Assembly: GCA_015485155.1 (NCBI GenBank)
Contig: WFUF01000027.1
Coordinates: forward strand, 1 to 64,000
Direction of reading: 5' to 3'
DNA from: Robiginitomaculum sp.
GTDB lineage: Bacteria > Pseudomonadota > Alphaproteobacteria > Caulobacterales > Maricaulaceae
DNA length: 64,000 nt
Made by a program: the position numbers and the translations under genes. Position 1 is the stretch's first letter; the number at the start of each line of letters is the position of its first letter. Of the stretch, positions 20,466-40,836 are shown piece after piece. A model generated the notes under the pieces. That model was given only the letters and a program-made list of their open reading frames with translations. It was not told the origin of the DNA and searched no databases.

Positions 20466-20550
20466 CAAATCCATAGATGCCATTGCCATGGCCTTCTTCG
20501 GTTATTTTCAGTCCACCGGACTGAAAATTTAGCTGCGCTAACCACCTGCG
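20466..20550 (+). repeat. Palindromic element, copy D, starting immediately after the ald stop
   Basis: CCAT-TGCC-ATGG hairpin, ggccttcttcggtt, ATTTTCAGTCC-ACC-GGACTGAAAAT palindrome, ctgcgctaaccacctgcgaag; aligns with copies in 35-38 kb. Confidence 0.8.
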
Positions 20551-20657
20551 AAGCATCATAGACGTTATAAATCGTCTTGCCATTTACCACCGACTTCACC
20601 CGCTTGCGATTGCCATCATAGGTGTATGTCCCACTGGCCGCACCAGAGATGCTGGTT
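20551..20657 (-). pseudogene. rhs core remnant (about 100 bp) downstream of the immunity-like gene
   Basis: Near-identical to about 21955-22050 of the full rhs gene; encodes SISGAASGTYTYDGNRKRVKSVVNGKTIYNVYDAS. Confidence 0.85.
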
Positions 20658-21121: not shown

Positions 21122-24100
21122 TTATTTTGATTCTTCCGTAGGAAATGGAACGATTTTCTTTGTCCCGTTTTCATCTGTTTCGATAACAACTAGATTGTCA
21201 GGGTTTATTTCCCGCCCTTCAGATGCAGCATTACGTCCTTCCGTATCGTTGGTTAGATCCATTTCCCTTTGGAGTGGAGTGTTCTTTTCTCCCGCCGGAT
21301 TTTCAGAATGTTGCCCTCGCAATTCATTCAAATTACTAAGAACTTTTGCTCCTAATTCACCAGTTTCTAATTCCTCAGTTAGACGTTTACTCGTAGTTGC
21401 ATGTCTCATGGCATCGTTTGCATTATCCACTCCCGGAAATAATCTGCTTTGCTCAGCAACAATACCTACGGCCAAATCATAATCAGCAACTAATACCTGA
21501 GTCGCTTTGAATACTTGGTCGGCACGTCGGTCAATTGCTGGATTCTTCCCCGTTGGGTCTGTGAGGTTGATGGGATCGTTACCGACATAGGTATACCGCC
21601 CGAACATGAACGGCATGTCTGGCGAAAACCCCACGGGGTCGATAGACAGGAAGCGACCTATCAGGGGATCATAATACCGCGCTTGCATGTAATTCAGGCC
21701 GGTGGCCGCATCTTTGATATGGCCGGTAAAGCCATCAAGGTTGTCGTTAGCGGCGGGGTTTAGGATCGTCTCACCAAAGGGTGTGTATTGTTCGTTCCAC
21801 GCTACTGCGCCGGTGCTGGTGGTTCCCGAACTGGCCGAACCTAGATGATCCTTGTGCAGATACGTCACATTGCCATTGGTAATCCGCGCTATCTCGCCGA
21901 TATAATCGGTGCGCTTATTGGCACTTTGATCAAAAACATGAACCAAAGTTCCAGAAGCATCATAGACGTTATAAATCGTCTTGCCATTTACCACCGACTT
22001 CACCCGCTTGCGATTGCCATCATAGGTGTATGTCCCACTGGCCGCACCGAAGATACTAACCGGTTGATCAGACATGTCGTAAGCAAACCCCTGCGCGCCC
22101 AGTTGCACAACATTACCACGAACATCATGAGAGATAGAACGAGTGCCCTTGACACTATCTGCGGTCTGGCTAACCCGGTTAAGACTGTCATAGCTGTTGA
22201 TAACATTCCGGGTGCCCAATGTCTTGGTACGGATATTACCAAGTGCATCATAAGTAAAACTTCCCGCGCCCCACGGGCCACTTGCCGAAGTAAGACGACC
22301 CAATTGATCATAAGCGTAATTACGATTATTGGCAGTGTTGATTAAATCAGTAACCGAGGTCACTTTGCCACGAACATTATAAGCATAAGTGTAATCCAGT
22401 GCCACTGCTCCGCCGGGCTTAGCCGTGCGGGTGTTAAACGGTTGCAGGCGTGCATTCAAAGTCTGGGTAAACACTTGGCCGTTTCCGTAGGTCATAGACG
22501 CCATTGCACCAGATGGATGATAATTGATATTATCAGCGTAAACTTGGGTGGCAGATTGTAATTTGGTCACACGACCAAGACCGTCAAAACTACTGATCAG
22601 GCCCACGCCCGGTGTCGGATAAGTTCGGGCAATCATATTACCAGCAGTGTCATAAGCATAACCAGAGTTAAAGCTTTCCGTGTCTACATGTAATATCTCG
22701 GCGGTTAGCATGTTTAGTTCGTTATACCAGTAAAACCAGTTAACTCCATCTCTGGCAAGAACTGTTACATTGCCATTGGCGTCAAACATCCGGCTGATAG
22801 TCGGGGTGTTGGCATCGGCAAAAACCTCGGCCCAGTTCCGCCCCAGATCATCATAAAACAAATCAACGCGGGTTTGACCCGATGGCGTGACACATGTACT
22901 GCCAGCGGCATTGCCCTTGGAATAGGCAATCATCTGCCCCGCAGCATCATATTGGTAAAGGGTCGAACCGCCCTCATTGGTGTGATGACGACACAGGCGT
23001 TGCTGGGCATCATAGACGTAAGTGTTAGTCTGATCCATGGTTATGCCGTTTTGAGTGCCGGCCTGGCGCAGGCTTAACATCTGTCCCCAGATATTACGGT
23101 TCAAATAGGTGTTTACGCCCAATGGCTGTTCAATGCGGATCAACTCACCAAAGCCATTATTATAATTGGTGGTCTGTGCGCCAGAGGCATCGGTAATTCG
23201 GGTGCGGTGACCGGACAAATACTCAGTAGACGTAGTGGCAAATGGCGCCACGGTCTCTGCCGTGCTAATTACCCGGCCAAGACCGTCATAAAAGGTGTTA
23301 ATACCGGCAGCTTCGGTTGGGTCGTAACTGGGCTGAGAGGTAAAAACAGTCTCGTTCAGGCCATTATATCTTGTATTCACATAACTGGATATTCCAGTGG
23401 ATAGATCCTTGGTCTCCACCAGGGCCGGGCGCAACATTCCATCATAGGTAACAATGGTTTGCGCATTACCCTTGGTGATGGTTTGAACCGTATTGGCACC
23501 AAAGGAATAGGATATATCCGTATCCAGCCATGAATTTTCAGTCTTTGACGGAATGATCTTGGTCAACCTACCCATATTATCACGAGTGTAAGAAGTGGTA
23601 AAACCCCTTGCGTCAACCAAAGAGCTTAACCAGCCATTATCATCAACATATTGATATTCCGACAAACCATCAGGACGGGTGATCTGCTGCGCCGTGCCGC
23701 GTTTCCAGTCAAGCGCGTAGGTAGTAAAATTATTGGCATTGGTAATTGAATATGGTGCACCCAAATATGCCGGATTGCTGTGATAGGCATAAGAGGCAAT
23801 TCGCACGCCATATCTGTCTGTCCATGATTTACGCCCCAAAGCGTCATAACCATTGGTGATTTCTAACCGGCCATTTACCGTGATTGTTGTGGGCAGACCC
23901 AATATCCATTTCACCTTGTCGTGTTGATAGGTGGTCAGCGTTTCGCGTGGTGTGGTTGAGACACTGCTCCAGCTTTTGCTGATGATCGGATTGCCATAAC
24001 TGTAATCGGCAGAGGCAGTATTCATATTATACTGATTTTCAATGTAAAATATATCACCATCGCGGCTGGTGTTGCTAGTGGCCAGAGGGCGGGGTTTTCT

Positions 24101-25630
24101 TGCCCCAGGTGTATAAAGCGGGAACGGTTCACTGATAGACGCCCCAATGGTATAGGTGTTGTAAACGATTTGCAGCAAGTTCCCGTTTTGATATGCTTCC
24201 TGTCGGATCAAAAGCCCCTCATAATCCCCAACAACTCGATTATGGTACCATTTGGTAACGCGGCCTTCCGGGTCGGTCATGGTTGTCCATTTCAACTCAC
24301 CACCAGCAGTTTGATAACTCTGACCGTTCCAGCCTTCATAACTCCAATTCCAATTGGCCGCCGGATATCCGGGGCCAGATAAAGTCTTTTGGGTCACCGA
24401 CATGGTTTCAAAAAATGGCTGGTCTTTTGTGATTTTTGAAGGGACTGAGTCACAATCTCCAGCCAAGTTTTTAAGTAAACCAACTTTTTTCCAATGTCGG
24501 GTCTCTTTTAAGGTATAGGTTCCTGTCATGCCCGTCGGGTGAGTCAATGACAAAGTAATGTCTGGCTGAACGCACATTTGCCCAGATTGCGCATTGATAT
24601 AACCAGTTCTTGGCCGAGTCCGCATGCCCCCAAGACTAAATGTCCATTGCCTACCATCAGGTTTGGTAACAGATTTCAAATTACGCCCGTATTGATCATA
24701 GTCATATTGCCATGTACGACCATTAGTACTTATGCTTTCGATTAATTTGGAACTGCCGGAATAGTTAAAATCAATCCGGCGCCCATCATTGCTGGTGATA
24801 TCCAACAGTCGGCCATTGACATCATAATTGTAGCGCACCCAATTGCCATTTACATCGGTAACCTCTGTGGCCAACCATATGTAATACTCTCTATCAACAA
24901 TGCCGCCACCTTCATAGCCAACCATGGTCGCATCACGAGTAATCATACGATCAAAACGGTAATAATCTCCATTGGGTGCCGTTGCAGAAAAACCCTCACG
25001 CCCAAGAGTATTGCCACTAGCAGGCAGACATTTGATAGCCCAATTATCAATCGTGACTAATTCCGTTCCTGCAGGCCATTGCGGGCCGGTGGCCAGCCTC
25101 TGTACAGAGCGCGCTCCTTGTCCGGGAATATGCAGGCTAATGCCATTGGAGTATTTGTCATACGGAATGATCGTCGTAGGACCTGTTCCGCTTTCATCAG
25201 GATTGGGAATTTGACTACCACTGCAATGATCCGGCATCGGGCCACCGGAGCCAAAAGTATATATATCGGTTATTTTGGGAATATCCAAAGCCCAATCAGC
25301 AAAATCAACTTGTACTGTTTGGCGGTATGTCCAGCCCTGCGCAAGGCGTCTGCGAACTGATACATCCAGGGACGAATTGCCAGGAAGAGATATATCTGTG
25401 TGCGAAAATACAATACCTCCAGTATCAGGATCGACGCTGTCCCCGAGTAAATCTGTGCCCAGCATTACCAGGCGCTCTTCGGCCAATTGCCGAACAATCC
25501 AGTCTGTTTCAACATTCTCAGGCTGAGTTACCCCATATTCACCTCCAGGCTCGCCTTGTGCCCAGGAAGCGGTGCTGCCCCCCAATATAACAAGATAAAT
25601 CGCAATAAGTGAAAAGAACAACCGGGACAT
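21122..25630 (-). CDS. RHS/YD-repeat polymorphic toxin with signal peptide and variable C-terminal tip
   Basis: Many YD repeats, RHS core FLSIDPVGFSPDMPFMFGRYTYVGNDPINLTDPTG then a unique tip NDAMRHATTSKRLTEELETGELG...MDLTNDTEGRNAASEGREI; start set at MSRLFFSLIAIYLVILGG. Confidence 0.93.
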   Translation of the reverse strand: MSRLFFSLIAIYLVILGGSTASWAQGEPGGEYGVTQPENVETDWIVRQLAEERLVMLGTDLLGDSVDPDTGGIVFSHTDISLPGNSSLDVSVRRRLAQGWTYRQTVQVDFADWALDIPKITDIYTFGSGGPMPDHCSGSQIPNPDESGTGPTTIIPYDKYSNGISLHIPGQGARSVQRLATGPQWPAGTELVTIDNWAIKCLPASGNTLGREGFSATAPNGDYYRFDRMITRDATMVGYEGGGIVDREYYIWLATEVTDVNGNWVRYNYDVNGRLLDITSNDGRRIDFNYSGSSKLIESISTNGRTWQYDYDQYGRNLKSVTKPDGRQWTFSLGGMRTRPRTGYINAQSGQMCVQPDITLSLTHPTGMTGTYTLKETRHWKKVGLLKNLAGDCDSVPSKITKDQPFFETMSVTQKTLSGPGYPAANWNWSYEGWNGQSYQTAGGELKWTTMTDPEGRVTKWYHNRVVGDYEGLLIRQEAYQNGNLLQIVYNTYTIGASISEPFPLYTPGARKPRPLATSNTSRDGDIFYIENQYNMNTASADYSYGNPIISKSWSSVSTTPRETLTTYQHDKVKWILGLPTTITVNGRLEITNGYDALGRKSWTDRYGVRIASYAYHSNPAYLGAPYSITNANNFTTYALDWKRGTAQQITRPDGLSEYQYVDDNGWLSSLVDARGFTTSYTRDNMGRLTKIIPSKTENSWLDTDISYSFGANTVQTITKGNAQTIVTYDGMLRPALVETKDLSTGISSYVNTRYNGLNETVFTSQPSYDPTEAAGINTFYDGLGRVISTAETVAPFATTSTEYLSGHRTRITDASGAQTTNYNNGFGELIRIEQPLGVNTYLNRNIWGQMLSLRQAGTQNGITMDQTNTYVYDAQQRLCRHHTNEGGSTLYQYDAAGQMIAYSKGNAAGSTCVTPSGQTRVDLFYDDLGRNWAEVFADANTPTISRMFDANGNVTVLARDGVNWFYWYNELNMLTAEILHVDTESFNSGYAYDTAGNMIARTYPTPGVGLISSFDGLGRVTKLQSATQVYADNINYHPSGAMASMTYGNGQVFTQTLNARLQPFNTRTAKPGGAVALDYTYAYNVRGKVTSVTDLINTANNRNYAYDQLGRLTSASGPWGAGSFTYDALGNIRTKTLGTRNVINSYDSLNRVSQTADSVKGTRSISHDVRGNVVQLGAQGFAYDMSDQPVSIFGAASGTYTYDGNRKRVKSVVNGKTIYNVYDASGTLVHVFDQSANKRTDYIGEIARITNGNVTYLHKDHLGSASSGTTSTGAVAWNEQYTPFGETILNPAANDNLDGFTGHIKDAATGLNYMQARYYDPLIGRFLSIDPVGFSPDMPFMFGRYTYVGNDPINLTDPTGKNPAIDRRADQVFKATQVLVADYDLAVGIVAEQSRLFPGVDNANDAMRHATTSKRLTEELETGELGAKVLSNLNELRGQHSENPAGEKNTPLQREMDLTNDTEGRNAASEGREINPDNLVVIETDENGTKKIVPFPTEESK

Positions 25631-25808
25631 GCAAAACTCCAAAAATGATTCCAGAATCAAAATACAATCTAACCGCGATCTACTTATTGTAAATGCTGAA
25701 AAATATTCTCCCCTTAAGATTGAGGCGCAATGAACAACAAGGGACTTTTGCGTCACCATACACCAAGATATATTTACCTTGCCTGCCTATGGTTTGATGT
25801 TCTTGTTA

Positions 25809-33967: not shown

Positions 33968-34447
33968 ATGAAATCAATCCTATTCACATTAAAAGAAATT
34001 GATAATCTAGAAAAACAGCTACAGCGAGATTTTTTAAAATTATCTGTTTACACATCTAAACAAGCTTATAGTCAGCCAAGTTTTGTAACTCTTTGGGATT
34101 CAAGACAGCAAGGTTTGAGAATTAGGTCAAGTATGTATGATGTTGCTGAACGAATGGAAGTCGGTGTTCTTTGTTTTGAAATGGCAAAAAAACCTCACTC
34201 GAAGGAGGTGTTCTATTCTCTACCAAAATCATTCTCAAAAGGAACAAAGCTTCAAAAATTTGTTATCGAAGAGTCAGGTTACGTGCTTGAATCAGGGTTA
34301 AGAATTGAAGCTGGTAATGGTGATAATATAGTCATTGTCCCAAATGCAATGCCGTTTTCGCTTGCTATTCACTGTACAGGGATTGAGTTAAATGGTTTTG
34401 AGCCAGAATATGATCTTGAGGAATACGAACTTAAAGAATTACGGTGA
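33968..34447 (+). CDS. Putative immunity protein for module 1 tip
   Basis: 159 aa ORF 24 nt downstream of the orphan tip on the same strand; lower GC; no recognised family. Confidence 0.5.
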   Translation: MKSILFTLKEIDNLEKQLQRDFLKLSVYTSKQAYSQPSFVTLWDSRQQGLRIRSSMYDVAERMEVGVLCFEMAKKPHSKEVFYSLPKSFSKGTKLQKFVIEESGYVLESGLRIEAGNGDNIVIVPNAMPFSLAIHCTGIELNGFEPEYDLEEYELKELR

Positions 34448-34474
34448 CAGTTTACTAAATGCACTTAATTGTTC
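34443..34474 (+). mobile_element. IS-end-like junction sequence (32 bp, copy 1)
   Basis: ggtgacagtttactaaatgcacttaattgttc identical at 37987-38018, where it directly follows a transposase fragment. Confidence 0.55.
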
Positions 34475-35041
34475 GTACCAACACCGCCAACAACCGGGTA
34501 TATGGTTATGATGCGCTTGGTCGCTTGACCAGTGCCAGTGGCCCGTGGGGCGGGGGCAGCTTCATCTATGACGCACTGGGCAATATCCGCAGCAAGACCC
34601 TTGGCACCCGTACCGTTAACAATGTGTATGACAACGCCTTAAATCGCGTCACCCAAACCGCCGATACGGTACGTGGCACAAGAGCCATCGCTCATGATGC
34701 CCGTGGTAATATCACCGCTCTTGGTGGGTTGAACTTTGCTTACGACACCTCGGATCAACCGACCAGCATATCTGGTTCCGCCAGTGGTGCGTATCTTTAC
34801 GATGGCAATCGCAAGCTGGTGAGATCGGTGGTCAATGGCAAAACCATTTATAACGTCTACGATGCTGGTGGTACGTTAAGCCACGTTTATGACGCCAGCA
34901 CTGGCAAACGAACCGACTATATCGGCCAGATCCTACGCATCACCAACGGCACGGTAACGTATCTGCACAAGGATCACCTTGGTTCGGCCAGTTCGGGAAC
35001 CACCAGCACCGGCGCAGTGGCGTGGAACGAGCAATACACAC

Positions 35042-35123
35042 TCAGCCACTGCCGTGGCCTTTTCCATTTACAAATGATTCACTGGATCATTTGTTCTGCA
35101 TTCGCAGACCAATTCCAAAGTGG
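35042..35123 (+). repeat. Palindromic element, copy B1, in-frame inside rhs
   Basis: Replaces the PF codons of EQYT(PF)GETILNP; net +75 nt; CAAATGAT-TCACTGG-ATCATTTG palindrome. Confidence 0.9.
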
Positions 35124-35200
35124 AGAGACTATCCTCAATCCAGCAGCGAATGATAACCTTGACGGCTTTACCGGCCACATCAAGGACAAAGCCACCGGCC

Positions 35201-35280
35201 TTCAGCCCCTGCCGGGGCCTTCTTCGTTTAAAATTGATTCACTGGATCAATTTTTTGGCTTCGCCAACCAACTACGAAGT
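35201..35280 (+). repeat. Palindromic element, copy A1, in-frame inside rhs
   Basis: Replaces NY of ATGL(NY)MQARYYD; net +72 nt; AAAATTGAT-TCACTGG-ATCAATTTT palindrome. Confidence 0.9.
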
Positions 35281-35987
35281 ATGCAAGCCCGTTACTACGA
35301 TCCGGCACTCGGGCGGTTCTTAAGCATCGATCCCGTGGGGTTTTCGCCCGACCAACCCTTCATGTTCAACAGATACACATACGTAGGCAACGACCCCATC
35401 AACGCCTGGGATCCGTTTGGAACCGAGTGCGTCAACGCAGATGACGGGAACACGACTTGCACAACTAATGATTATGATGTGACGTTTGAAACTCCAAAAG
35501 GATTTCCCGGAAGCGACCCGGATGGTGAAAATGGACACTACTATAATACCCAAGCTCAATCCCCGCTCGGAGCAGAAGAAACTAGAGATTTTGTTAAAAA
35601 CAATCCGACACCAGGCAACCCGAAACCAGCTACTCCAGAAGGAACGGTGAATGATGCTACACCAGTTATTGGAGGTTTGCCCGGAAATATAAGTCCTGTT
35701 GAATCCATAACGACTACAAATAATGTTAGTGGAAACGAAGTCGTAGTAAATGTTACTCTTCCCGGCCACCCCCTGTTCCCTGGAATTGTTGTTCGCGACG
35801 TGTCACCTAACTCAGATGGAACCTCGACCATCAATAATTATGGCGAGGGAAATGGTGCTCTTCAAAAGCCCGGAGGGCGTTTTGCCAATCGAATAAACGG
35901 TGTGTGGAAAGGGGAAGTTCCTCGTGCCCCTGTTGATCCGAGCAACATATGTAGGACTTGTCCATAAGTCGGTGTCTCAAACTATAG

Positions 35988-36401
35988 GTGAATCGTATGA
36001 CTAGATTGCTGTCTGCATTTTTAATTAGCCCGATTTCGATTGGATTGCTGATGTTAGTTGCATCGCTGTTTTTGTCATCATCATCAGAAGGTGTTTGGGC
36101 TTTGAAGATGTCAGCCTCGGTAGGATACCCCCTTGCAATATTAGTTGGTATTCCCGTTTTTCTTTTTTTGAAGAAAAACACAGAAAACAAGTTATCTCAA
36201 TATCTATTATCCTCGCTTCTATTTTCTATTTTATTGATTGGACATTTTGTGCTTTGGCCTATGTTGTCGTTACCAGAAGCAACATCTTCAAACTTGCTTT
36301 CTACACCCCGGATATACCAAATGTTGATAATTATCCTTGCTAGCGGGTTCACGGTTTTTGTTTTTTGGATAATCGCTCGTCCCGATAAGGCTAATTTGTG
36401 A
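35988..36401 (+). CDS. Putative membrane immunity protein for module 2
   Basis: Four hydrophobic segments; starts 20 nt after the module 2 stop. Confidence 0.5.
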   Translation: MNRMTRLLSAFLISPISIGLLMLVASLFLSSSSEGVWALKMSASVGYPLAILVGIPVFLFLKKNTENKLSQYLLSSLLFSILLIGHFVLWPMLSLPEATSSNLLSTPRIYQMLIIILASGFTVFVFWIIARPDKANL

Positions 36402-36418
36402 TGATGGCTATGTAAGAA

Positions 36419-37348
36419 ATGGAGGCGACAAAAAAGGGAAATGACTGCGCAGAGCAAGATAAAGCTAGGTGGGCCAGTTCCGGCACGACCAGCACCGGCG
36501 CAGTGGCTTGGACGGAACAATACACACCTTTCGGAGAAACCATTCTCAATCCGGCGGCTAACGATAATCTTGATGGCTATACTGGACACATCAAGGACAA
36601 AGCCACCGGCCTTCAGCCCCTGCCGGGGCCTTCTTCGTTTAAAATTGATTCACTGGATCAATTTTTTGGCTTCTCCAACCAACTGCGAAGTATGCAAGCC
36701 CGTTACTACGATCCGGCACTCGGGCGGTTTCTAAGCATTGACCCGGTGGGGTTCAGCCCCGACATGCCATTCATGTTTGGCAGGTATACGTATGTCGGTA
36801 ACGACCCCATCAACGCCTGGGATCCATTTGGGTTGCAAAGCTGCTCAAATGGAACAAAATGCCCTGATATAATGCCCCTTCCACCTAAAAAAGCCCTTAA
36901 AGTAGCGGATGCGGCAGCAAAAAGCCAGAAAAGTGGTAAGGAGGGAGGATCGAGCATGTATCGTAATCGTGAAACCGGTGAAGAACGTATTGTAGCAGGA
37001 GATGACGCAGGATCGTGCAAGGAAAACAGTTTTAGGCATAAGATTGGAAACCGTGATGAGAATGAGGATGTCGTAGCGCTTGGCCATACGCATTTAGACA
37101 AGGGACAAGGACAGGGCGGTCTTGCCCGCTACAAAGGTAGAAGAGATCAAAACGCGCCCAGTGAAGCTGATCAAGCAGCTATGGATAAAGTCAATGCTCC
37201 AATTATAACGGTTGGACCAGATGTTACGTCACAGTTATACCGTGTAGACGGTCAAGACAGAGTTCAGATTCTGAAAGGGTCAGAAAAAAAGATGCCTAAC
37301 TTAAAGCGCCAGAGAATTAAAAAATGCACGGGAGAAACTCAATGTTAA
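36419..37348 (+). pseudogene. Truncated RHS protein with JAMM/DUF4329-like tip (module 3)
   Basis: RHS core from about 36472; tip VVALGHTHLDKG...APSEADQAAMDKVNAPIITVGPDVTSQLYRVDGQ carries an HxH...SxxD pattern. Confidence 0.75.
36612..36691 (+). repeat. Palindromic element, copy A2, in-frame inside rhs
   Basis: Same insertion site as A1; two substitutions visible (cttctccaaccaactgcgaag). Confidence 0.9.
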
Positions 37349-37791
37349 AAAACTTCATTCCAATAGCGACGTTGGGTTTTTCTATTTTTTTTCTTGCAGG
37401 TTGTCAGGTATCTGCAGTTAGTGAGGGTTTTGAACATGTGCCGATAGAAATCTTGCTCTCGGAGGCATCTTCTTTCGATGGCCATTCAATTTGCAGCACA
37501 GGATTCGTTAAGGCTGGTGAGGGTGTATATGTATACGCAAGTATTGATGATTTGAGGCACAAAACTTACGATAAAATGGTTGTGTTACATTTTTATGATA
37601 CTAAACGCCCTGACTATAATGCATTGAGGCTTAACCAAAAAGTTCAATTTTGCGGAGTAGTTGAATTTGATAAAGATTGTTGGAGAGAGATCAATCCTAA
37701 GATTAGTGGTCCCAACTGTGTTCCGTATAACAAACCTGTTGATGTTAATGTCAGCAAATTTAATTATGGAACTGACATAGATAGCAGATAA
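37324..37791 (+). CDS. Putative immunity lipoprotein for module 3
   Basis: Lipobox FLAGC; overlaps the end of the module 3 ORF. Confidence 0.55.
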   Translation: MHGRNSMLKNFIPIATLGFSIFFLAGCQVSAVSEGFEHVPIEILLSEASSFDGHSICSTGFVKAGEGVYVYASIDDLRHKTYDKMVVLHFYDTKRPDYNALRLNQKVQFCGVVEFDKDCWREINPKISGPNCVPYNKPVDVNVSKFNYGTDIDSR

Positions 37792-37807
37792 AGGCTATTG
37801 ATGTTAG

Positions 37808-38002
37808 ATGGTTAGCACGAGACGACGGAGCAGGCTCTCAACAAGTATTCAAAGTGAGCTTATCAAGTATTTCTGTGCGGGTGTGACGGCTCGTTCGGCG
37901 GCCCAGTTGACGGGGGTAAATCGCAACACGGCGATCCTGTTTTACCACAAACTGCGCGAGGTGATCTTCTGCCGTCTGGAAATTATGGTGACAGTTTACT
38001 AA
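37808..38002 (+). mobile_element. IS1595-like transposase N-terminal fragment
   Basis: LSTSIQSELIKYFCAGVTARSAAQLTGVNRNTAILFYHKLREVI followed by premature junction LEIMVTVY*. Confidence 0.75.
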
Positions 38003-38018
38003 ATGCACTTAATTGTTC
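37987..38018 (+). mobile_element. IS-end-like junction sequence (32 bp, copy 2)
   Basis: Identical to 34443-34474. Confidence 0.55.
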
Positions 38019-38170
38019 ATACCAATACTGCCAACAAGCGCACCGATTACATCGGCGAGGTAGCGCGGATAACCAATGGCAATGTAACTTACTTGCACAA
38101 GGATCATCTCGGTTCAGCCAGTTCTGGCACCACCAGCACCGGCGCAATAGTGTGGAACGAGCAATACACC

Positions 38171-38253
38171 TTCAGCCACTGCCGTGGCCTTTTCCATTTA
38201 CAAATGATTCACTGGATCATTTGTTCTGCATTCGCAGACCAATTCCAAAGTGG
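38171..38253 (+). repeat. Palindromic element, copy B2, in-frame inside rhs
   Basis: Same site and nearly same sequence as B1. Confidence 0.9.
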
Positions 38254-38284
38254 CGAAACTATCCTAAATCCAGCCGCAAACGAT

Positions 38285-38365
38285 ACTTCGGAGGCGGTTG
38301 AACGAGAGTTCAAATTTTTGATCCGGGGGATTAAAAATAGCTGTAGAAGGCCCGGCAGGACAGAC
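38285..38365 (-). repeat. Palindromic element, copy C, in reverse orientation, in-frame inside rhs
   Basis: Reverse complement tcctgccgggccttctacagctatttttaatcccccggatcaaaaat...cgcctccgaagtatc aligns with A; replaces NL of NPAAND(NL)DGYTG; net +72 nt. Confidence 0.8.
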
Positions 38366-38402
38366 GGATACACCGGCCACATCAAAGACAAAGCCACCGG
38401 CC

Positions 38403-38482
38403 TTCAGCCCCTGCCGGGGCCTTCTTCGTTTAAAATTGATTCACTGGATCAATTTTTTGGCTTCGCCAACCAACTACGAAGT
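38403..38482 (+). repeat. Palindromic element, copy A3, in-frame inside rhs
   Basis: Same insertion site and sequence as A1. Confidence 0.9.
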
Positions 38483-39183
38483 ATGCAAGCCAGATACTAC
38501 GATCCGGCACTGGGTAGGTTCCTGTCGATTGACCCGGTGGGGTTCATGCCATCCCGCCCGGGACAATTTAACCGCTATAGCTACACATATAACGATCCGG
38601 TTAATTTTATTGATCCAGATGGTAAGATTGCTGCCGGGTTAAAAATTGAAGGACAAGCAGTTGCGGGCAAAGGTGGTAAATTCTCTCTTGAGGTCTCTGT
38701 AGATTTTAAAACTGGAGAAATTAGAGCTTCAGGCTCGGTCGGTTTCCGAGCGGGACTTAGGGGCAAGGGAAATATTTCTGGTTTTGTCGAGCCAAGCCTA
38801 AAACGAGGCAATAGTCTCAGCGCCAAAGGCGTTGTTTCTGTAGAAGGCGGCGTAGATATTGAGACTCCAATTGGCACAGGAGAGATAGATTCCTACGCGG
38901 AGTTTGGCGCAGGAACTGACGTGTTGGTGACTCCTGATCTAGATGCTTTGCTCGATGTCTCGGGCAATTTGGGTCCAGTTAGCGTTGATGAAAATGGCCG
39001 CGCTTCAGTTGGCATCGGTGGCGCTCTTGGTGCGAGCGCCGGAATCGAATATACTATTGAGGGTAGTTTTTCGATACCAGACACTGTCGATGCTGTCATA
39101 AACGTAGTTGATAGTATCAAGGAGAAGTTTGAATGATCACAACTGATTGTTTTGAAAAAAAACAAGCACATGAGAATTAGATT

Positions 39184-40472: not shown

Positions 40473-40836
40473 GGGTGTGAACCCAATTCATAGCATTGAT
40501 TTTATTACCGAACGCTGATTCAAACTCTCAAAAGGAGATTGAATTATGCGTCTTTACTTGTTGGATGAAGAATGGGCCATTATTGAGCCGCTATTACCCT
40601 TGAAAAAGAGAGGGACGAAACGGGTAGATGACCGCAAACCCACCTGCCACCACATGAAGAAAACCCTTGCAATCAAAGGGCCCTCCATAGATGATAGGAA
40701 AAAGTTTCTCGACTCTGACCGATGGGATATCTCGTTATCCATCCTGCACAATGACATGAGCAGTGCGGCGGATGATAAAATCTATTCACGCCGCTGCCAG
40801 CAGATTCCTGCCAGCAAGAATATCTGCGCTGCATAA
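40473..40836 (+). mobile_element. IS5-family element remnant (left end + N-terminal transposase fragment)
   Basis: gggtgtgaacccaattcatag end-like sequence, then MRLYLLDEEWAIIEPLLPLKKRGTKRVDDRK; family similarity lost after about 40650. Confidence 0.7.

Follow-up and report, generated by a model that had tools for sequence, protein, structure and literature searches.

How did palindromic segments of about 80 nt come to lie in frame within truncated rhs genes, and do they belong to those genes alone? The question is raised by a 64,000-nt stretch of DNA (hereafter, the window: positions 1–64,000, forward strand, of contig WFUF01000027.1 in GenBank assembly GCA_015485155.1, Robiginitomaculum sp., Maricaulaceae), in which three truncated rhs open reading frames (ORFs; hereafter, orphans) can be compared with an intact rhs gene. 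An initial annotation, made from the letters alone, proposed that the extra segments form a small, covarying, undescribed family directed at rhs tips. We found a single structured element family that has entered rhs genes in several lineages and that also adjoins, with high precision, the 3' ends of tRNA, RNase P RNA, and protein genes. The features concerned are listed below, with ^ marking an insertion point and core coordinates taken from covariance model R2, a later model than R1, which was built from eight copies.

20478–20555, forward strand: seventh copy of the element, in antisense orientation where an rhs remnant is broken off (NVYDAS^); 85.9 bits, E = 4e-17
21122–25759, reverse strand: intact rhs gene, 1545 aa; sites A, B, and C all empty, the reference state
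34459–35967, forward strand: rhs orphan 1 ORF, 502 aa; holds A1 and B1; RHS_repeat and Rhs_assc_core matches
35042–35123, forward strand: element A1, in frame in rhs orphan 1 (EQYT^GETILNP); R2 core 35044–35122; 85.8 bits, E = 4e-17
35201–35280, forward strand: element B1, in frame in rhs orphan 1 (ATGL^MQARYYD); R2 core 35204–35281; 94.0 bits, E = 7e-19
36419–37348, forward strand: rhs orphan 2 ORF, 309 aa; holds B2; A site empty
36612–36691, forward strand: element B2, in frame in rhs orphan 2 at the B site; R2 core 36615–36692; 88.6 bits
38003–39136, forward strand: rhs orphan 3 ORF, 377 aa; holds A2, C, and B3
38171–38253, forward strand: element A2, in frame in rhs orphan 3; R2 core 38174–38252
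38285–38365, reverse strand: element C, antisense with the frame open in rhs orphan 3 (NPAAND^DGYTG); R2 core 38284–38362; 62.9 bits, E = 5e-12
38403–38482, forward strand: element B3, in frame in rhs orphan 3; R2 core 38406–38483

All six inserts of the initial annotation are present in the three orphans. Each places 26 or 27 residues (for example, IDSLDQFFGFANQLR) where the intact rhs gene has two, and against the empty version of each site the net gains are, as had been claimed, +75 nt at A, +72 nt at B, and +72 nt at C (25, 24, and 24 codons) with no stops. The copy at 20478–20555, which had been overlooked, lies at an rhs/ald junction with the ald stop 13 nt away. In a side-by-side comparison of the flanks at A, B, and C, about 5–9 nt of target had been replaced and no target site duplication, a mark of miniature inverted-repeat transposable elements (MITEs), was seen. 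The NCBIfam profile TIGR03696 (Rhs_assc_core) matches the orphan ORFs only from profile position 29, immediately after insert B, so that B splits a conserved domain at profile position 28/29. The paralogues differ in which sites hold an element: orphans 1 and 3 have one at A, where orphan 2 has none; C is occupied in orphan 3 alone; and B is occupied in every orphan but not in the intact gene. Because of this variation between paralogues, and because the intact gene has no insert at any of the sites, we consider the insertions derived rather than ancestral, as the annotation had supposed. A1 and A2 are identical, as are B1 and B3, and B2 is 98% identical to the latter pair; the six copies therefore represent three insertion sites, two of which were copied along with the rhs fragment. 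The same identity pattern suggests that B was probably inserted first and then copied with the fragments.

The inserts belong to a single family, about 80 nt long, whose four helices are a 5' GCCnC-TGCC-GnGGC hairpin, an outer stem, and two inner hairpins; element C is a member in opposite orientation. The outer stem, in which the 3' end pairs with the arm behind the 5' hairpin over 4 to 11 pairs, provides terminal inverted repeats such as define a MITE. This four-helix structure is held by compensatory change: in 102 distinct copies from relatives, 96.9% of helix cells pair (76.7% in shuffled sequences), 467 cells have changed on both sides (134 in shuffles), and the covariation score is 0.501, compared with 0.144 for shuffled sequences and at most 0.133 for slid structures. 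The covarying palindromic family that had been proposed is thereby borne out, and its long central palindromes lie far above chance (R1 E-values of 1e-15 to 6e-21 for the window copies, window search with filters off). Plain BLAST was discarded as a means of finding copies because divergent ones were missed, including the copy at 20478 (E = 0.58, compared with E = 2e-19 for the covariance model). The loop-side pair reads GATCC in about two-thirds of copies and GATTC in about one-third (columns 49/55: CG 69, UG 32). A special coding frame of the element is unsupported, given that frame openness in 148 copies is 0.44 against 0.39 in shuffles; with openness so near the shuffled value there is no sign of design for coding, and that copies stay in frame is most readily attributed to selection acting on the rhs ORF rather than to the element itself. 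No Rfam 15 family reaches threshold, the only scoring families being the adjoining tRNA and RNase P.

Covariance model scans of the genome and of alphaproteobacterial relatives, the check suggested in the initial annotation, found the palindrome conserved. R1 located seven copies in the window and 12 in the genome (nine on contig C27, one on C13, one on C5, and a weak one on C8), counting one hybrid. Eleven of these 12 touch rhs sequence, which by inspection makes up about 1% of the 2.39-Mb genome, the exception being the weak C8 copy; the model search found no copies in the intact rhs genes of the genome. Three of the copies mark points where rhs is broken (20478; C27:72.8 kb; C27:175 kb). 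Antisense rhs copies on C13 and C5, and in the relative G010, either disrupt the reading frame or bring in a TGA in frame, so the statement that insertions are always in frame without a stop stands for the window inserts and fails for these. The C5 copy (L025, C5:4172–4250) is a hybrid of two right arms within one rhs gene, its left part coming from an antisense copy after NKYNA and its right part from a copy at the ARAYDP site; judged from these flanks, it looks like what was left when a deletion removed the stretch between two inverted copies lying in that gene.

Beyond this genome, matches at E ≤ 1e-4 were found in 101 of 298 genomes of the order (Caulobacterales) and 32 of its 54 genera, with up to about 15–19 copies per genome, and at this threshold the covariance model search listed no match in family f3 of the order. 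Carriers are mainly Henriciella, Maricaulis, Hellea, Robiginitomaculum, Hyphobacterium, Marinicauda, Aquisalinus, and further Hyphomonadaceae and Parvularculaceae; the family is common to a group of mostly marine bacteria. Outside the order, only 4 of about 380 genomes of the class have matches at E ≤ 1e-5, and megaplasmids of Rhizobium and Neorhizobium carry forms that are related to the family yet distinct from it. The idea that viruses, phages, or plasmids carry the element was rejected, with no exact pattern match in viral contigs, none in phages, and only the weak Rhizobiaceae megaplasmid relatives in the plasmid search. Two of these megaplasmid forms (L231, Neorhizobium; L232, Rhizobium) have another 3' end (CCGCTCCTCAC) and start at the stop codon of transporter binding-protein genes. 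In Hyphomonadaceae UBA5336 (L093, L095, L104, L142, L146, and L148), elements lie in or beside longer repeats with GCGAAGCGGAGAGCAAACAGGGA-like flanks, which are perhaps a larger composite family.

The rhs genes, which are of the Rhs toxin type, are a recurrent home of the element in these relatives. With an rhs profile built for the analysis, in-frame sense copies inside rhs ORFs were identified in G006, G024 (three copies), G022, G034, and L098, the last being an alphaproteobacterial metagenome-assembled genome outside the order (same coordinates as G460). The position between 'GL' and 'ARxYDP' is occupied in the studied genome, G006, G024, L098, and a decayed Henriciella rhs (L197), and the right half of the C5 copy also uses the 'ARxYDP' position. 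In-frame placement in rhs is common, not general. Among the copies examined, internal in-frame insertions with homology support were found in rhs only, the other cases in coding sequences (CDSs) sitting at a stop codon, and insertion in frame into many unrelated metabolic genes was not found.

A second home is the 3' end of genes. A tRNA is found no more than 15 nt away from 39 of the 157 distinct copies, and in all 39 the 3' end of the element meets the 3' end of the tRNA on the opposite strand, one of eight possible configurations; the distance is 0 nt in 24 of them, and nine kinds of tRNA carry adjoining elements. RNase P RNA 3' ends are adjoined in the same manner (L105/L193 and L114). At protein genes, again on the opposite strand, ten copies overlap or touch the stop codon within 13 nt compared with three lying 14–60 nt beyond it. 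The genes adjoined encode GroEL, an Fe-type superoxide dismutase, PntB (twice), a thiolase, a carboxyltransferase, and NAD synthase, and since the profile matches reach the profile end or nearly so, these genes are full length at the 3' end. In total, about one-third of the 157 distinct copies are flush with tRNA, RNase P RNA, or protein-gene 3' ends, although the sample was partly picked by sequence pattern and such fractions are not unbiased frequencies. Together with the spread over 101 genomes, this contradicts the proposal of a small family dedicated to rhs tips.

The tRNA-Thr(CGT) gene carries an element behind it in 13 genomes of the genus Henriciella, where the outer stem, including the CA of CCA, pairs at 10 or 11 of 11 positions even though the stems differ in sequence (e.g., ATTCATTTCC, ATTCAAATCC, and ATTTTTCATC). 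When the arms were swapped between copies, only 8.4 pairs formed on average, compared with 10–11 in the native combinations; a counted model, which also takes in two partial tandem copies, agrees on the conservation of this stem. In other species of the genus, the same tRNA gene has no element. To account for this locus, one must assume either selection on the structure or a repeated replacement of the element by structured copies. A T5 run follows the element in 0 of 50 tRNA-linked copies and a T4 run in 7 of 50, which rules out an ordinary intrinsic terminator. In Maricaulaceae (L102, L107, L128, L144, L058, and others), a further hairpin (TTCGCTCGC..GCGAGCTTCGGC) stands behind tRNA-linked copies, making the trailer longer than the element.

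We favor, with more confidence than doubt, the explanation that this is a palindromic element of about 80 nt, dispersed and non-autonomous, that has spread around Maricaulaceae, Hyphomonadaceae, and Parvularculaceae and whose copies are structurally preserved at gene 3' ends and tolerated in rhs. Copies entered the rhs orphan genes after those genes arose, replacing the short target described above. A putative trans-acting factor would move or copy the element, and selection would leave copies where they are harmless: downstream of a stop codon or a CCA end, or within spare rhs tips if the reading frame is kept. Next to gene 3' ends, the structure would have become useful, or would at least be maintained, probably as an RNA structure in the 3' region that influences trimming or decay. 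In rhs, the extra ~26 residues would be tolerated because orphan tips are spare cassettes, and pairs of elements may also act as recombination points, as in the C5 hybrid. This explanation draws on the covariation, the polymorphic occupancy of sites A, B, and C, the concentration of genome copies at rhs (11 of 12), the rhs insertions in several lineages with their recurrent GL^ARxYD site, the placement at tRNA, RNase P, and CDS 3' ends, the outer stem kept behind the Henriciella tRNA-Thr while its sequence changes, and the order-wide spread. Four observations weigh against it. No mobilizing enzyme was found, the Y1/RAYT (REP-associated tyrosine transposase) family PF01797 being absent from the studied genome and from G018, G024, G028, G034, G049, and G057. 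At the Henriciella tRNA-Thr a clean orthologous empty site was not obtained, the element-free downstream sequence not being homologous. The flush, single-orientation placement at tRNAs is more precise than harmlessness alone predicts, and the near-shuffled frame openness gives no hint of design for coding.

In the strongest competing explanation, a minority view in our estimate, the element is primarily a functional RNA trailer that runs from the CCA, the RNase P RNA end, or the stop codon. It would control how the 3' end is trimmed, stabilized, or terminated, with rhs and intergenic copies as recombination strays. One orientation and zero spacing at many unrelated tRNAs, RNase P RNA, and several housekeeping CDSs would follow directly, as would the compensatory evolution at the orthologous tRNA-Thr with the CA of CCA within the stem, and the Rhizobiaceae relatives likewise start at the stop codons of transport genes. 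However, species differ in whether a given gene has the element, genomes differ widely in the number and location of copies, several rhs insertions are independent and in frame, and the missing T5 runs leave no ordinary intrinsic terminator.

More tentatively, the family could be a new class of structured element that targets, or is kept at, exact gene 3' ends in a single orientation, with the CA of CCA taking part in its pairing and rhs serving as a second niche. Such copies might be deposited by priming on RNA 3' ends, with the tRNA 3'-OH copying element RNA; the order and strand observed, tRNA-CCA and then the element complement, are those expected from a tRNA 3' end priming on element RNA.

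The copies at rhs break points and the C5 hybrid with two right arms would suit sites that shuffle rhs C-terminal cassettes, the palindromes promoting exchange between the full rhs gene and orphan tips, but the majority of copies in relatives lie outside rhs and the intact rhs genes of the studied genome have none, making this explanation improbable. Mobilization of repetitive extragenic palindromic (REP)-type elements by a Y1 (IS200/IS605-like) transposase has even less to recommend it: small hairpins at gene ends fit, and REPs are also reported in CDSs (PMC3733652), yet PF01797 is missing from the studied genome and copy-rich relatives, for which reason RAYT was rejected as the mobilizer, and it occurs in 3 of 25 element-bearing compared with 11 of 36 element-free genomes. 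That the segments are an ancestral part of rhs lost by the intact gene is practically untenable, because, although the B position is filled in rhs of several lineages, the same element stands outside rhs at tRNA and other genes, A and C are filled in some paralogues only, and the intact gene and orphan 2 read through to the conserved Rhs motif.

How does the dispersed element compare with known systems? In-frame palindromes in genes are known from Wolbachia as well as from Rickettsia. The Rickettsia palindromic elements (RPEs) are alphaproteobacterial palindromes of 100–150 bp found in frame in protein genes and also in tmRNA and RNase P (M1) RNA genes (PMC2229807, PMC10969869), and by analogy they appear to be the closest known kind. 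Both families are palindromic with a stable hairpin structure and insert in frame in protein genes (here rhs, with some rhs copies out of frame). The present family differs in being about 80 nt long with four helices, a distinction drawn from descriptions of RPEs rather than from their sequences; in standing precisely at the 3' ends of tRNA and RNase P genes, whereas RPEs lie inside such genes; and in CDS insertions that concentrate in rhs, with frames that show no coding bias. REPs and REPINs (pairs of REPs) with RAYT, including GTAG- and CGTC-tagged REPs, are small dispersed hairpins near gene ends, some in CDSs (PMC3733652); the family described here is longer and multi-hairpin, and its copy-rich genomes lack PF01797. 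The Caulobacter intergenic repeats (CIRs), of about 110 bp with two hairpin arms and a GANTC near the terminal loop (PMC2229807), have a similar outline in a related lineage. However, GANTC is not conserved in our family, given its GATCC/GATTC variation, and family f3 of the order has no listed match; CIRs were compared by description only. Rhizobial RIMEs (Rhizobium-specific intergenic mosaic elements) are likewise alphaproteobacterial palindromic repeats, and element-like copies with good covariance model scores occur in Rhizobium and Neorhizobium; in 250 kb of Sinorhizobium meliloti pSymB, a stretch in which RIME positions are not established, there was no convincing R2 match.

Searches of the open-access literature found no description of the family or of its placement at tRNA 3' ends, so the annotation's view of it as undescribed agrees with both this and the Rfam result. 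Here, in a free-living lineage, in-frame palindromes in rhs that resemble those of Rickettsia are combined with marks at the exact 3' ends of genes for tRNA, RNase P, and housekeeping proteins. The placement rule at gene 3' ends is unusual and testable, and the system is tractable because Henriciella, Maricaulis, and Hellea have isolate genomes. It bears on how protein-coding palindromes move without a known transposase and on the role of RNA structure at gene ends.

Three minor features were noted around the rhs orphans. A 26-nt motif, TGACAGTTTACTAAATGCACTTAATT, is present at the 5' edge of two of them (window 34445–34470 and 37989–38014) and again beside the element at the rhs junction at C27:175 kb (L022); it is possibly a transposon end or a recombination break point. 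At the edge of orphan 2, GAGCAAGATAAAGCTAGGTGG (window 36452–36472) is similar to GAGCAAGATAAAGCGA, which adjoins elements in G022, G024, and G034. Lastly, the remnant of an IS5-like transposase ORF lies near the orphans (window 40546–40836), and a similar ORF is found near the L022 element.
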